A stretch of 64,000 nucleotides of DNA from Blastocatellia bacterium (GTDB taxonomy: Bacteria > Acidobacteriota > Blastocatellia > HR10 > J050). Below the pieces are notes generated by a model, which worked only from the letters and a program-made list of their open reading frames with translations, was not told the DNA's origin and searched no databases. The stretch covers positions 1 through 64,000 of the forward strand of contig JALSQX010000020.1 of assembly GCA_026985075.1 (NCBI GenBank). Direction: 5' to 3'. Of this stretch, positions 3,727 through 44,334 are shown in pieces. Made by a program: the position numbers and the translations under genes. Every line of letters begins with the position of its first letter. The first letter of the stretch is position 1.

Positions 3727-4659
3727 TCCACGCTGGTGGCCTTGACACGATCACCGGAAAGAGGAGATCGAGCGCAACCGCCGGTTCCCAATCGGCAGAT
3801 GGACCCCCTAGCCGATTAGCATGGGTCGTCAGGTGCCAGTCGCACAGTCGCCAACTCGGGCTCTCAAGAGATTAAGAAGGGGCAGACTCCAGGCCTGTGA
3901 AGCGCAGCTCTGCGGGGTCTTCTGCCCTCACCTGCTCTCTGCCTCGAGTGGGTCAGATCGAGAGGAGTTCCAGACGACGAGGAGCGTCGCTCAGCACCCC
4001 GAGCTTATAGATATTCCACAACCCCAACCACCCGCCTCATTCTTGTAACGGAAGGGCCTCGGCAGGGCGTCTCTGATGAGTCAACCATCTCGCCCAGAAG
4101 ATCGAGCACGTCAGCATACCTTCATCGAGCCGAAAGGCTCTCCTGCTGTCTCAACCTGACGGGCGACCCTTCGAGGGCGACAGGCTTCGACTCCATGCAC
4201 CATCCCCTTCCTCTCGTTCGCCGAGGCACGATCACTGGAACGCGCTCTCTCTGATCTCACGCACTTCACCGGGTCGCCCCCCTGAACCTCACAGCGATAG
4301 CCCGGTCGGCAAATGCCCCAACCTGGCGAATCACGTCGAGAACGCCGGAAGGGGATACCTCGGAAGATGCACATTCCCGTTGCTCGGACCGGCGCCTTGT
4401 GCTACTATGGCGGCATCGAAGATCACAAATGACGAGCCAACGAGGTGGGGTGGTCCGGCGTGGGAGAATGAGGTCAAGGTGCTGGTGATGACCAGACGAG
4501 AATGCGCTGTTCACACTCCCACCCCTCTCGGGTATCGGGCATTCTCGCCGACCCGCAGGATTCGTTTGATTTCGCCATCGAGGCGGGTGAAACAATCCCA
4601 CCCTGTCTCACGTATTCACTCGGTGAACACCGACAAAACTTCTCAAGGAGTGCACGCTT
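3727..4659. other. Gene-poor region of 933 bases
   Basis: No convincing gene was found. The short open frames here (for example 3821-4048 on plus, 4266-4601 on minus) have atypical Arg/Pro/Ser-rich composition, no ribosome-binding site worth noting and no recognisable motif. No tRNA, strong terminator or long repeat was seen. The last part carries the leader of the TolC-type gene, with AAGGAG about 9 bases before its ATG at 4660. It may be a decayed gene region. Confidence 0.4.
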
Positions 4660-22997: not shown

Positions 22998-23308
22998 CCC
23001 AGGCTGCATATCGGCTTGGCGGAGGTGGGATCGGAGAAACGTCGGGCATCTCCGCAGTATAGCCATCACACGTTGGAAGAAACACCCCCGCTCTCCTGGA
23101 CATACCGCTTCAGAGTCCCCTGTGATCAAGGGGCCTGTGTTCCCTGAAACGCCCGGCCTTGGCCCTCCGATGGCACCCCCTTCGAGTTCCCAGCGCCTGG
23201 TTGGCTCACCGCAATATCTAGAACCCATTGCCCCATGGCAGGCAGCGGCAATATAATGCCCTGGGCAGGCCGGAGACGGGAGATCCCGGCCGGCAACGGT
23301 CAGGAAGG

Positions 23309-23749
23309 ATGACGAGGAAAAAGCAGACCAAGTCAGGCCTCCGCGGCGTCGTTCAGCGGTTTGGTGTTTCCATGGAACCGGTCCTTCTGCGCCGGTTTGA
23401 CGCGCTCATCGCCCGCAAGGGCTATACGACGCGCTCAGAAGCACTGCGCGATATGGTTCGCGCCGCTCTGGCCGAAGAGGTTTTGACCGATGAGCGTGCG
23501 GAGGTGGTGGCCACCATTGTGCTGGTATACGATCACCATCTTCGCAATCTCACCGCCAAGCTCACCCAACATCAACACGACACTTTGGATCTCATCACTG
23601 CCACGCTCCACGTTCATCTGGATGAACATCGTTGTCTGGAGGTGCTGGTGGCGCGCGGTCGCTATGGACGCGTGCGCCGATTAGCGGACCATCTCATCAG
23701 CATGAAGGGCGTCCAGCACGGTGATGTCCTTGTGACTCCGCTCGGTTGA
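23309..23749 (+). CDS. nikR: Nickel-responsive regulator NikR
   Basis: A 146-residue ribbon-helix-helix repressor that binds DNA when loaded with nickel. The N-terminal DNA-binding part is RFGVSMEPVLLRRFDALIAR followed by GYTTRSEALRDMVRAAL. The C-terminal ACT-like nickel domain has the ligands: the YDHH motif (His76/His77), His101 and His103 in LHVHLDEHRC, and Cys109. The assigned ATG 23309 is tight against its AGGAAGG, so the exact start is uncertain. It probably controls the divergent TonB-dependent receptor, as nickel receptors are NikR-regulated in Helicobacter (established there, inferred here). Confidence 0.88.
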   Translation: MTRKKQTKSGLRGVVQRFGVSMEPVLLRRFDALIARKGYTTRSEALRDMVRAALAEEVLTDERAEVVATIVLVYDHHLRNLTAKLTQHQHDTLDLITATLHVHLDEHRCLEVLVARGRYGRVRRLADHLISMKGVQHGDVLVTPLG

Positions 23750-23841: not shown

Positions 23842-24483
23842 TCACCGGGTGATCTTCACCGGCCTTTCCGGGAGTGGCCCTGGCGACGGAGAGATGTTAG
23901 ACGTCCGCTCGGTGGCTCGGATGAATTCCTCCAGGGCCTCGGCCGACTGTACACCGAATAATACGGTTCCGCCAGCAACGAACGCAGGGACGCCGCAGAG
24001 CCCGTAGCGAGCGGCGAGTTGCTCATCGGCCAGCACCTCGCTCCGATACTCGTGGTGATCCAATGCCCGCCTCAGGGCTTCACCTTTCAACCCGACTGAT
24101 TCGGCCAGCGCCACCAAGACGTCGGATTGACCGATATCCTCGCCTCGCTCGAAGAAGGCGCGGAATATGGCCTCATTCATCAGATCGAATGCTCCCTGAT
24201 GACGAGCCCAGGCGGCGGCCTCGTGCGCCAGACGCGAGCGCGGTTGCACCGGGGGGCGTCGCATGAGCATGCCCAATTTCTCGGCCAGTGGGTACACGGC
24301 CTGGGCCCAGGCGCGGCGGAGATATTCGCCCTGAGGATCGAGCGTGGGCACGGGTTCGGGCCTCAATTCGAAAGCGCGCCAGACGATCACCAGCTCAGGG
24401 ATGCGCCGTTTCACTTCTCGCACCGCTGGCTCGCCGAGCCAGCAGAACGGTCACACATAGTCGGAGAAAATCTCTAATCTCAT
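23842..24483 (-). CDS. DsbA/FrnE-like selenoprotein (UPFC active site)
   Basis: A 213-residue thioredoxin-fold oxidoreductase of the DsbA/FrnE group, interrupted at codon 11 by an in-frame TGA (24453-24451). The reading from ATG 24483, which has AGGAGGTGACCA directly before it, gives MRLEIFSDYV, then TGA, then PFCWLGEPAV; relatives have CPFC here, so the TGA stands at the first catalytic cysteine. Downstream the chain continues without another stop through the helical insert and the cis-proline loop (LCGVPAFVAGG) to TGA/stop at 23842. A hairpin at 24443-24425 starts 7 bases after the TGA. I read the TGA as selenocysteine. The shorter frame from GTG 24421-24423 would lack the catalytic site. 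No signal peptide is evident, so it is probably cytoplasmic. It lies 75 bases after a second TGA-containing redox gene. Confidence 0.85.
24425..24443 (-). promoter_or_regulatory. Putative SECIS hairpin of DsbA-like gene
   Basis: On the mRNA strand, GCTGGCTC pairs perfectly with GAGCCAGC around a GGC apical loop (8 base pairs). The stem begins 7 bases after the TGA and the loop lies at +16 to +18. This matches the distance and G-containing small loop expected for SelB-recognised bacterial SECIS elements. It is wholly inside the coding region, as in bacteria generally. Confidence 0.7.
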
Positions 24484-24558
24484 TGGTCACCTCCTGAGGT
24501 CCGGAGTCCAAACGGATACCACAGAGACTCGCGGTGCCCCAAAGCCTCACTCCGCCTC

Positions 24559-25101
24559 TCACTGCTTCCCGGCGAGCACGCTACACGCCTGGTAGGCGCC
24601 GGAGGGATCGATGGCCGAACGCCCCAACTCGATGTGGCGAATGATGCCCTGCTTATCGATCACGAACGTGGCGCGACGAGCGAACCCGCGCTCTTCGTCC
24701 AGAATGCCGTAGGCTTTCGAAACGCGTCGGTGGAAGTCGCTGAGGAGGGGAAACGTGACGCCCAAGTCCTGGGCAAATCGCTTATTGGCGGCGAAACTAT
24801 CCACGCTGATGCCCAACACCTGCGTCTCGGCCGCTTGAAACTTGGCGATATCAGCCTGATACGCCTTCAGTTCGCGCGTTCAGCCGGGCGTGAAGGCCAG
24901 TACGTAGAAGGCCAAGACGACGTTCTTCTTGCCCTTGAAGTCGCTGAGCGATATGGGCCGACCGTCTTGATCGCGCAGCGTGAAGTCGGGGGCGGGATCA
25001 CCGACTTTCAGGGGCGTCGTCGGCAGCGACTGTGCCAGGAGTGACACCACACTCAAGAGGAGCGTGACGCTCATGGCGGCGATGCACGATGCTCTGTTCA
25101 T
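24559..25101 (-). CDS. Exported peroxiredoxin selenoprotein (TPGU active site)
   Basis: A 180-residue AhpC/TSA-type peroxiredoxin read from ATG 25101 (AAGGAGG upstream) through an in-frame TGA (24882-24880) at codon 74. The N-terminus is a signal peptide ([18 protein letters not shown]). The fold motifs follow: [44 protein letters not shown], then [24 protein letters not shown] and [15 protein letters not shown]. In relatives the residue after TP-G/V is the peroxidatic cysteine, so TGA stands exactly at the catalytic position. The Thr of TPG and the Arg of the catalytic triad (FARRATF) are present. A Cys near the C-terminus (QACSVL) could be the resolving thiol. A hairpin with a GGC loop follows the TGA. 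Presumably it reduces peroxides outside the cytoplasm. Confidence 0.87.
24844..24865 (-). promoter_or_regulatory. Putative SECIS hairpin of peroxiredoxin gene
   Basis: On the mRNA strand GGCG-TATCA pairs with TGATA-CGCC around a GGC apical loop, with one bulged U on the 3' side (24848). The stem begins 14 bases after the TGA and the loop lies at +24 to +26. Size, position, bulged U and GG-containing loop agree with bacterial SECIS elements. The apical triplet is the same as in the hairpin of the neighbouring gene. Confidence 0.68.
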
Positions 25102-26160: not shown

Positions 26161-26207
26161 CCACAAGATATTGTGATTTTTTTTCTTGACAAGCCATTAT
26201 GTTGTGA
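26161..26207 (+). promoter_or_regulatory. Tandem NrdR boxes upstream of nrdJ
   Basis: Two 16-base sites at 26161-26176 (CCACAAGATATTGTGA) and 26192-26207 (AGCCATTATGTTGTGA). Compared with the NrdR consensus acaCwAtATaTwGtgt they match at about 13 and 11 positions. They are 31 bases apart, three helical turns, the usual NrdR spacing, and the second lies inside the promoter spacer. This predicts repression of nrdJ by ATP/dATP-loaded NrdR. Confidence 0.75.
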
Positions 26208-26214
26208 TTACACT
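26186..26214 (+). promoter_or_regulatory. Promoter of nrdJ
   Basis: Perfect -35 TTGACA (26186-26191), 17-base spacer and -10 TACACT (26209-26214). The leader to the ATG at 26351 is about 130 bases and includes a GACGG/CCGTC hairpin at about 26233-26249. No cobalamin riboswitch was recognised in it. Confidence 0.7.
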
Positions 26215-26350
26215 GGGGACATCCTCGGACGGATTCGAACCGTCAGACGGCGACAAAAACAAAAGTGAGCGAGTTCAAGGGGTGGGTTTCGGTTGTGTGA
26301 GAGTGGTGGGGAGATCATCCTCAAAAACGCGGCAAAGGGGGACGAATCGG

Positions 26351-29149
26351 ATGGAACGAATGGAACGGTTCAGCCAAGGATCTCAGCGCAGAGAGATGGT
26401 CGACAGTGGTCTGCAGATTCGGCGGTATTTCACCATTCCCGGAGTCGATCCATTTGATCAGGTGGATTGGGAGCGGCGGACGGCGCGCATCGTGGGCAGC
26501 GATGGGGTGGTCGTTTTCGAACAAGCGGACGTGGAATTCCCCAAGTTCTGGTCTCAGCGGGCGACCGATATCGTCGCTCAGAAGTATTTCCGGGGGAAAC
26601 TCGGCTCGCCGGAGCGCGAGTACAGCGTACGGCAGATGATCGGGCGGGTCGTGGATACCATCACCCAGTGGGGAGTCAAGGATGGATACTTCGCCTCGCC
26701 GGAGGATGCCGCGACGTTCCGGGCAGAGCTGACGCACCTGTTGCTGTATCAAATGGCGGCGTTCAACAGCCCCGTATGGTTCAACGTGGGGTTTGAGGAG
26801 AAGCCCCAGTGTTCGGCGTGTTTCATCCTCTCGATCGAAGACAACATGGAATCGATCCTGGAGTGGTATCGGACCGAGGGCATGATTTTCCGGGGCGGTT
26901 CGGGTTCGGGCATCAATCTGTCCAAACTCCGCTCGTCCAACGAACAGCTCTCCAAAGGAGGGAAGGCCTCGGGACCGGTCTCGTTCATGCGCGGGGCGGA
27001 CGCCATCGCCGGGACGATCAAATCGGGTGGCAAGACCCGACGCGCCGCCAAGATGGTGGTGCTCAACGTCGATCATCCCGATATTCTGGAATTCATCTGG
27101 TGCAAGGCCAAAGAAGAGCGCAAAGCCTATGCGCTCAGCGAAGCGGGATTCGACATGTCCTCGCTCGACTCCGAGGGCTGGATCTCCATCCAATATCAAA
27201 ACGCCAACAACTCGGTGCGGGTGACCGATGAGTTCATGCGAGCGGTGATCGAAGATGGAGACTGGCATTTGCGGGCCGTCACCACCGGCGAGGTCGTCGC
27301 CACGCATAAAGCTCGGGATATCTTGCGTCAGATTGCCGAAGCCGCCTGGGAATGTGGCGATCCTGGCCTGCAGTACGATACGACGATCAACGAGTGGCAC
27401 ACCTGTCCTAACAGCGGGCGCATCAACGCCTCCAATCCCTGTTCCGAGTACATGCATCTGGATGACAGCGCCTGCAACCTGGCGTCCTTGAATTTGATGA
27501 AGTTCTATGATACGGCCAGTGGCGACTTCCGGGTCGAAGCGTTCAAACATGCCGTCGACATTATGATCCTGGCGCAGGAAATCATCGTCGGCAATTCCAG
27601 CTACCCGACGGAGAAGATCACCATGAATGCCAAGGCCTATCGTCAATTAGGCCTGGGCTATGCCAATCTCGGCGCCCTGCTGATGGCTCGTGGACTCCCT
27701 TATGATTCGGACGAAGGCCGCGCGTACGCGGCGACCGTCACGGCGCTCCTCACTGGCGAAGCCTACGCCATGTCAGCCCGCATCGCTGAAAAGATCGGTC
27801 CTTTCGCCGGTTTCGCCATCAATCGCGATCCGATGCTTCGGGTCATACGCAAGCACCGCGACAGCTTGCAGAAGGTAGATCGCCACCTCGTGCCCGAAGA
27901 CCTCTACCAGGCGGCTGAGCAAGCCTGGGACGATGCGTTGGCGCTCGGAGAACAATACGGCTATCGAAATGCCCAAGCCAGCGTGCTCGCGCCCACGGGG
28001 ACCATCGCCTTCCTCATGGATTGTGACACGACCGGCGTCGAGCCAGATATCGCTCTGGTCAAATACAAGAAGCTGGTCGGTGGTGGCACGATCAAAATCG
28101 TCAACCACACGGTGCCTATTGCTCTACGGCGACTCGGCTACGACGAAGATCACATCGCCGATATCATGGCGCATATTGACGAGCACGGCACGATCGAAGG
28201 CGCGCCCCATCTCAAAGAGGAGCATCTCCCGGTGTTCGATTGCGCATTCCGTCCGGCCAGCGGCACTCGCTCCATTCACTACATGGGCCACGTGCGCATG
28301 ATGGGCGCAGTGCAGCCGTTCATCTCGGGAGCCATTTCAAAGACGGTGAACCTGCCCCACGACGTCACCCCCGATGATATCGCCGAGGTGTATATCGAAG
28401 GTTGGCGTCAGGGCCTCAAGGCCATCGCCATTTATCGCGATGGCTCCAAACGCATTCAACCGCTGAGCACCGGCAAGAAGACGGCGGCCAAGAAAACGAC
28501 CGAGCCAGCGCCCACCCAATCCGAACGCCCGGGCCTCTCTCCGGCGAAAGTGGCTCAACCCGTTCGTCATCGACTCCCGGATACCCGACGGGCGATCACG
28601 CACCACTTCACCATCCGGAGCCAGGATGGCTCCGTACATGATGGATACATCACTGTGGGCATGTATGAAGATGGCTCGCCCGGTGAGATCTTCGTCACCG
28701 TGGCCAAGGAAGGAAGCACGATCTCCGGGCTGATGGACGCCTTTGCGACGGCCGTCTCCATCGCCCTGCAATACGGCGTCCCGCTGGAGGCGCTGGTCAA
28801 GAAATTCAGCCATATGCGCTTTGAGCCCTCCGGCGTCACGACGAATCCGGAAGTGCGCGTGGCCAAGTCCATGGTCGATTACATCTTCCGGTGGCTGGCT
28901 TCGCAATTCCTCGATGAGAGAGCACAGGAGGAACTGGGTGTGATGACGCCGCCGGTGCGAGAGAAGCTGGCTCGGGCCCTCTCCGGAGACGTGAAAGAAG
29001 ACGAGGCGCTCTCAGAACCGACCACGCCGCGAACGACCTATATCAGCCAATCGGATGCGCCACCATGTCCTGACTGCGGCCAGATCATGGTCAGAAACGG
29101 CTCCTGCTATCGCTGTCACAATTGCGGGAGCACCAGTGGATGTTCATGA
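26351..29149 (+). CDS. nrdJ: Vitamin B12-dependent ribonucleotide reductase, class II
   Basis: A 932-residue adenosylcobalamin-dependent enzyme reducing ribonucleotides for DNA synthesis, independent of oxygen. ATG 26351 follows GGGGGACGAATCGG; the open frame reaches upstream through the promoter, so earlier starts are rejected. Motifs include FNSPVWFNVG, the substrate/redox cysteine in QCSACFI, GGSGSGINLSKLRSS, the active-site loop NPCSEYMHLDDSACNLAS and APTGTIAFLMDCDTTGVEPD. The C-terminal tail ends with two CxxC pairs (CPDCGQ, CYRCHNCG) and a final cysteine that should reduce the active site. It is transcribed alone under NrdR-type control. Confidence 0.95.
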   Translation: MERMERFSQGSQRREMVDSGLQIRRYFTIPGVDPFDQVDWERRTARIVGSDGVVVFEQADVEFPKFWSQRATDIVAQKYFRGKLGSPEREYSVRQMIGRVVDTITQWGVKDGYFASPEDAATFRAELTHLLLYQMAAFNSPVWFNVGFEEKPQCSACFILSIEDNMESILEWYRTEGMIFRGGSGSGINLSKLRSSNEQLSKGGKASGPVSFMRGADAIAGTIKSGGKTRRAAKMVVLNVDHPDILEFIWCKAKEERKAYALSEAGFDMSSLDSEGWISIQYQNANNSVRVTDEFMRAVIEDGDWHLRAVTTGEVVATHKARDILRQIAEAAWECGDPGLQYDTTINEWHTCPNSGRINASNPCSEYMHLDDSACNLASLNLMKFYDTASGDFRVEAFKHAVDIMILAQEIIVGNSSYPTEKITMNAKAYRQLGLGYANLGALLMARGLPYDSDEGRAYAATVTALLTGEAYAMSARIAEKIGPFAGFAINRDPMLRVIRKHRDSLQKVDRHLVPEDLYQAAEQAWDDALALGEQYGYRNAQASVLAPTGTIAFLMDCDTTGVEPDIALVKYKKLVGGGTIKIVNHTVPIALRRLGYDEDHIADIMAHIDEHGTIEGAPHLKEEHLPVFDCAFRPASGTRSIHYMGHVRMMGAVQPFISGAISKTVNLPHDVTPDDIAEVYIEGWRQGLKAIAIYRDGSKRIQPLSTGKKTAAKKTTEPAPTQSERPGLSPAKVAQPVRHRLPDTRRAITHHFTIRSQDGSVHDGYITVGMYEDGSPGEIFVTVAKEGSTISGLMDAFATAVSIALQYGVPLEALVKKFSHMRFEPSGVTTNPEVRVAKSMVDYIFRWLASQFLDERAQEELGVMTPPVREKLARALSGDVKEDEALSEPTTPRTTYISQSDAPPCPDCGQIMVRNGSCYRCHNCGSTSGCS

Positions 29150-44086: not shown

Positions 44087-44108
44087 CTGCTTTTCAAAAC
44101 GTGATGCA

Positions 44109-44264
44109 CACCTTCGGGGCAGGGTGAGCCCCTCGATGAGGGGGGCAATTCCCGACCGGCGGTATGGCCCAGAGTCCTGGGCCGAGCCCGCGACCCCCAC
44201 GGCATGGTGGGGTGGATCCGGTGAGAGGCCGGGGCCGACGGTATAGTCCGGATGGGAGAAGGTG
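44109..44264 (+). ncRNA. FMN riboswitch (RFN element)
   Basis: The conserved RFN boxes occur in order: CTTCGGGGCAGGGTGAG, then CCGACCGGCGGTATGGC, the GAGCCCGCGACCCCC block, GGATCCGGTGAGAGGCCGGG, and GCCGACGGTATAGTCCGGAT with GGGAGAAGG. This aptamer binds FMN and reduces expression of riboflavin genes when FMN is plentiful. It is placed directly before ribD. Confidence 0.95.
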
Positions 44265-44334
44265 GCAATCGGATGTCGCTGGCTGAGCGCGATGCAGAGC
44301 GTCGGGTTCGCCAGCGGCGTATTGGAGCGGTGTC

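Follow-up and report, generated by a model that had tools for sequence, protein, structure and literature searches.

Does the TGA that interrupts the active-site motif of a DsbA-like gene end translation, or does it encode selenocysteine (Sec)? The question is raised by a minus-strand gene in the 64,000-nucleotide stretch of Blastocatellia DNA analysed here (the window), which an initial annotation had marked as a probable selenoprotein with a U-P-F-C active site. Judged from comparative sequence evidence, this TGA is almost certainly read as Sec in the catalytic centre.

Reading frame through the TGA

Along the minus strand, AGGAGGT is followed by GACCA, an ATG (24483-24481), codons for MRLEIFSDYV, the TGA and codons for PFCWLG (Table 1), which is the start and frame that the initial annotation had described. 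From PFCWLG the frame is open to residue 213 and includes the cis-Pro loop, GVPAF (P166), in agreement with the earlier claim that the rest of the fold is uninterrupted. Mechanical ORF calling returns only a 193-residue frame that begins with a GTG (24423) 3′ of the TGA and from which the catalytic motif is absent. The existence of this frame is what speaks for an ordinary stop, in which case the true start would lie downstream and the upstream codons would be untranslated. However, the ribosome-binding site and ATG lie upstream of the TGA, and a protein of 193 residues would be without both strand 1 of the fold and the catalytic motif; the doubt already cast on an ordinary stop was thus well placed. 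Ordinary gene calling would shorten this FrnE-like enzyme and remove its catalytic centre, an annotation that the longer frame corrects.

Table 1 Coordinates of the two putative selenoprotein genes and their signals in the window
Feature	Positions	Strand	Details
FrnE/DsbA-like selenoprotein CDS (putative)	23842..24483	minus	213 aa, predicted Sec at residue 11 (UPFC); stop TGA 23844-23842
Ribosome-binding site AGGAGGT	24489..24495	minus	5 nt before ATG; kept in 89%-identical sister gene
In-frame TGA	24451..24453	minus	nucleophilic-Cys position of CxxC
Bacterial SECIS-like hairpin	24425..24443	minus	8-bp stem, GGC apical loop, loop G +16 from TGA
Peroxiredoxin selenoprotein CDS (AhpC/TSA, TPGU; putative)	24559..25101	minus	PF00578 E 2e-42; TGA 24882-24880
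SECIS-like hairpin of peroxiredoxin gene	24844..24865	minus	GGC loop at +24; core TATCAGGCTGATA

TGA and Cys codons alternate among orthologues

Relatives were taken from public genome contigs and from the class to which the window's genome belongs, giving, with the window included, 28 distinct loci that cover the position. The column of the window TGA holds TGA in 23 of these loci, TGC or TGT in five, and TAA or TAG in none, at protein identities to the window protein that run from 89% down to about 32%. Cys orthologues, which the initial annotation had suggested seeking, therefore exist in relatives, and their Cys codons fall exactly where it had placed the first Cys of a CPFC motif. Moreover, relatives preserve the peptide EIFSDYV just before the TGA, with synonymous variation in its codons; a lack of conservation upstream of the TGA had been named as grounds for rejecting a selenoprotein. 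This protein-level conservation, together with the Cys orthologues that are open through the TGA position, leaves an ordinary stop with a downstream start very improbable.

By record title, the TGA forms come from Acidobacteriota, Gemmatimonadota, Desulfobacterota (Thermodesulfobacteriota), Methylomirabilota, Nitrospirota and Rubrobacter (Actinomycetota); most of these records are metagenome bins, so single phylum placements may be wrong. Putative Sec-containing FrnE is nevertheless spread through several bacterial phyla, and well-supported branches of the tree force at least three changes between Sec and Cys labels. Both Sec and Cys FrnE occur among close relatives, and these natural pairs would allow the contribution of selenium to a DsbA-fold enzyme to be tested.

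The same comparison bears on whether the TGA is a sequencing error, such as a misread TGC, or a recent nonsense mutation that has turned a Cys gene into a pseudogene. The contigs are drafts, mostly from uncultured organisms, as such an explanation would suppose. Against it, 23 loci drawn from various assemblies and phyla share TGA at this position and none has TAA or TAG, nearly all of the frames are otherwise open, and a genus-mate carries the same TGA in a gene with 89% protein identity. Since related organisms that were assembled independently carry the TGA too, a sequencing error is very improbable, and we give error and pseudogene together a very small probability. The exception among the frames is a Pyrinomonadaceae contig in which a frameshift or an assembly error disrupts the FrnE gene beyond residue ~143, from about position 4432. 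One genome (G149) has both a Cys FrnE orthologue and, at a separate locus, a distant paralogue of FrnE in which the equivalent codon is TGA (L056 and L059).

A SECIS-like hairpin follows the TGA

A perfect 8-bp stem with a GGC loop had been reported 7 bases after the TGA, and GCTGGCTC-GGC-GAGCCAGC is found there, starting exactly 7 nt past the codon. In the model of the bacterial SECIS element given by a recent review, a small apical loop lies 16-37 nt from the UGA and has G as its first or second base (PMC13188914); the hairpin agrees with this model, the first G of its GGC loop, at +16, lying at the lower limit of that range. Across the window, only 6 of 2421 TGA triplets (0.25%), that of the FrnE gene included, are followed by a comparable stem, defined as perfect, at least 8 bp long, with G in the first two loop positions and 16-37 nt past the TGA.

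The predicted folding energy is -15.1 kcal/mol for a 23-nt piece and -22.6 kcal/mol for a 41-nt region, which is more stable than its dinucleotide shuffles (z -3.6; 0 of 200 as stable). Because the stem doubles as coding sequence for W-L-A-E-P and shows little variation, weak covariation is to be expected, and tests against synonymous codons were used in its place. When the same peptide was given resampled synonymous codons, the window hairpin stood out (z -2.7, p 0.007), as did that of the 89%-identical sister gene (z -4.0), whereas in several relatives the stability of the hairpin did not exceed the synonymous null. Mean folding z values against synonymous nulls were about -1.2 for the 23 TGA genes and about -0.1 for the five Cys genes, these loci not being independent of one another.

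In an alignment of 13 TGA genes, standard pairs fill 94.5% of the pair cells in the 7-bp core, compared with 12-58% when the partner strand is slid; covariation in this set is indeed weak, with mostly one-sided variation that does not exceed a shuffle control. Codon choice over the hairpin in 19 TGA genes is narrow (Ala+6 only GCG or GCA, Glu+7 mostly GAG, Pro+8 mostly CCA and Ala+9 mostly GCC); beyond the stem, by contrast, the four-fold codons (Ser-4, Val-1, Val+10, Arg+25 and Ala+26) are mixed. By this measure of codon usage, the wobble positions of the stem are unusually conserved.

The genome encodes the Sec machinery

The same genome has selA (577 bits), selB (371 bits) and selD (369 bits), the last with a TGA inside its own frame, together with a tRNA-Sec whose anticodon is TCA. 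A genome with no Sec machinery, which the initial annotation had held would overturn its proposal, is thus not what we find. The selD product (L090, G000:C33:250191-251117) reads HGAGUACK, as a Sec-containing selenophosphate synthetase.

The residue inserted at a UGA is invisible in DNA, and this leaves room for Trp or Cys in place of Sec, whether through reassignment of the codon or through leaky readthrough. Four observations argue against it. First, UGA is the normal stop of both the FrnE gene and the neighbouring peroxiredoxin gene. Second, selA, selB, selD and tRNA-Sec are present. Third, the TGA aligns with a catalytic Cys, not with a Trp. Finally, the SECIS-like hairpin lies 3′ of the TGA. 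We therefore regard insertion of Trp or Cys as highly improbable and retain Sec as the preferred reading.

Among the 22 genomes examined, selB scored over the cut-off in 20, the two exceptions being 67% and 75% complete. Across the whole class, selB occurs in 131 of 162 genomes. A link between the choice of Sec or Cys and loss of selB was considered and rejected, as Cys-bearing genomes also keep selB; with the gene so common and retained alongside Cys forms, its distribution offers little or no contrast.

Assignment to the FrnE subfamily

With residue 11 read as Cys, the protein matches the DSBA profile PF01323 at 122.5 bits (curated cut-off 25.6; E 2.5e-35), and no NCBIfam model scores above its own cut-off. 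The best phmmer match among PDB sequences is Deinococcus radiodurans FrnE (5cp1/5cnw, E 1.2e-20). An AlphaFold2 model built from an alignment of the window protein with the fetched relatives has a mean pLDDT of 91.2, and a Foldseek search with this model places FrnE 5cp1/5cnw first (E 5e-15), then SCO1869, with HCCA isomerases, kappa-class GSTs and other DsbA-like oxidoreductases further down the list. The profile match, the search of PDB sequences and the predicted fold all identify the protein as a FrnE.

The closest comparison, D. radiodurans FrnE (DR_0659; 5cnw, 5cp1), shares the FrnE fold, the position of the CP(F/W)C motif and the cis-Pro loop, and likewise is without an apparent signal peptide. 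It differs in having Cys where the window protein has its predicted Sec and in its C-terminal CxxxxC, which was looked for in the window protein and is absent. That motif is frequent in FrnE and optional, the D. maricopensis protein being without it (PMC8945050), and so does not define the subfamily (cd03024, COG2761). Besides residue 11, the window protein has only Cys14 and Cys163; Cys163 is not conserved, and Cys14 is the only other conserved Cys in the aligned relatives. Streptomyces coelicolor SCO1869 (PDB 3gl5) has a probable DsbA/FrnE oxidoreductase fold as well, but shows 25% identity in the fold comparison and is not a selenoprotein entry. Strand 1 of the predicted fold begins at residue 2, so that a signal peptide could not fit ahead of it, and the protein is probably cytosolic, the location predicted for other FrnE (PMC8945050).

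A study of Sargasso Sea data reported nine DsbA-like selenoprotein sequences of COG2761 that carry UxxC in 2005 (PMC1088965), DsbA-like selenoproteins have also been identified in bacterial genomes (PMC1794560), and reviews of 2022 and 2026 include the family among those known (PMC9312934, PMC13188914), with NIP15863.1 as a deposited example. The window gene resembles the DsbA-like protein form 1 of the first report (COG2761/PF01323) in its DSBA domain, predicted Sec first in UxxC, widespread Cys homologues and a bacterial SECIS-like element downstream; the likeness is drawn from descriptions, in which no difference is apparent. Since UxxC selenoproteins of COG2761 were described in 2005, the window gene is not new in kind; it is a further case of a known selenoprotein family and brings no new principle.

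A proposed model for Sec insertion and catalysis

Standard bacterial Sec insertion proceeds through SelB bound at a hairpin downstream of the UGA, and in DsbA/FrnE chemistry the first position of CxxC attacks and the second Cys resolves. Starting from five computed results (the open frame, the TGA or Cys codon conserved at residue 11, the Sec machinery of the genome, the SECIS-like hairpin and the predicted fold), we propose, with a probability of about 95%, that the gene encodes a probably cytosolic FrnE-type protein of the DsbA family with a Sec nucleophile (U11-P-F-C14) inserted by SelB at the hairpin and with Cys14 resolving. SelB carrying Sec-tRNA(Sec) would bind the mRNA hairpin (24443-24425), leading to insertion of Sec at the UGA. 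The U11 selenolate, at the N-terminus of helix 1, would then attack a disulfide or oxidised thiol species of a presumed substrate; Cys14 would resolve the mixed selenenylsulfide to form a U11-C14 selenenylsulfide; and a thioredoxin- or thiol-type reductant, as the presumptive partner, would recycle the enzyme. We infer a redox direction in which the protein would probably serve as a disulfide reductase or isomerase in oxidative stress. For D. radiodurans FrnE, a role as a disulfide reductase of the cytoplasm has been proposed, and deletion of frnE raises susceptibility to oxidative treatment (PMC8945050). By analogy, a similar disulfide reductase role is most likely for the window protein.

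A probable seleno-peroxiredoxin upstream and the gene neighbourhood

The FrnE gene had been called the second probable selenoprotein, and its upstream neighbour is indeed a TPGU peroxiredoxin gene with a SECIS-like hairpin of its own. This neighbour resembles the selenoprotein peroxiredoxins (TXXU) in carrying TPGU within an AhpC/TSA domain and belongs to a different family from FrnE. Its TGA is kept in all of the best 10 matches in related genomes, the window's own included, and its hairpin core is nearly invariant in relatives. The peroxiredoxin carries an apparent signal peptide. When all TGA codons in the window were scanned for motifs, 239 matches resulted, most of them noise; on inspection by eye, coherent redox motifs were recognised at just the TGA codons of the FrnE and peroxiredoxin genes.

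In both genomes of the genus the two genes lie side by side; in a further genome (G146) some 4 kb separates them, and elsewhere they are on separate contigs. They may form a shared operon within the genus, with no broad functional link. A more ambitious proposal joins them in a two-gene selenium redox operon serving one pathway and has the Sec-FrnE clade, which is without CxxxxC, recycle in a manner unlike D. radiodurans FrnE; adjacency in just two genomes of one genus and an apparent signal peptide on the peroxiredoxin alone make a shared pathway doubtful, and we judge this proposal unlikely. Gene neighbourhood was also tried as a clue to function and rejected: outside the genus the neighbours of FrnE differ between relatives, so no partner can be inferred from them.

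Two more peroxiredoxin-like genes with an in-frame TGA occur in the same genome, L087 (G000:C44:38068-38469), with its TGA within WTPVUT, and one at G000:C102:35281-35706; the genome seems rich in seleno-peroxiredoxins. Elsewhere in the window, a NikR-type nickel regulator (23228-23749, plus strand) is convergent with the FrnE gene, a class II (B12-dependent) ribonucleotide reductase is encoded at 26186-29149 (plus strand), and an FMN riboswitch (RF00050, 88.1 bits) lies at 44106-44267 (plus strand).
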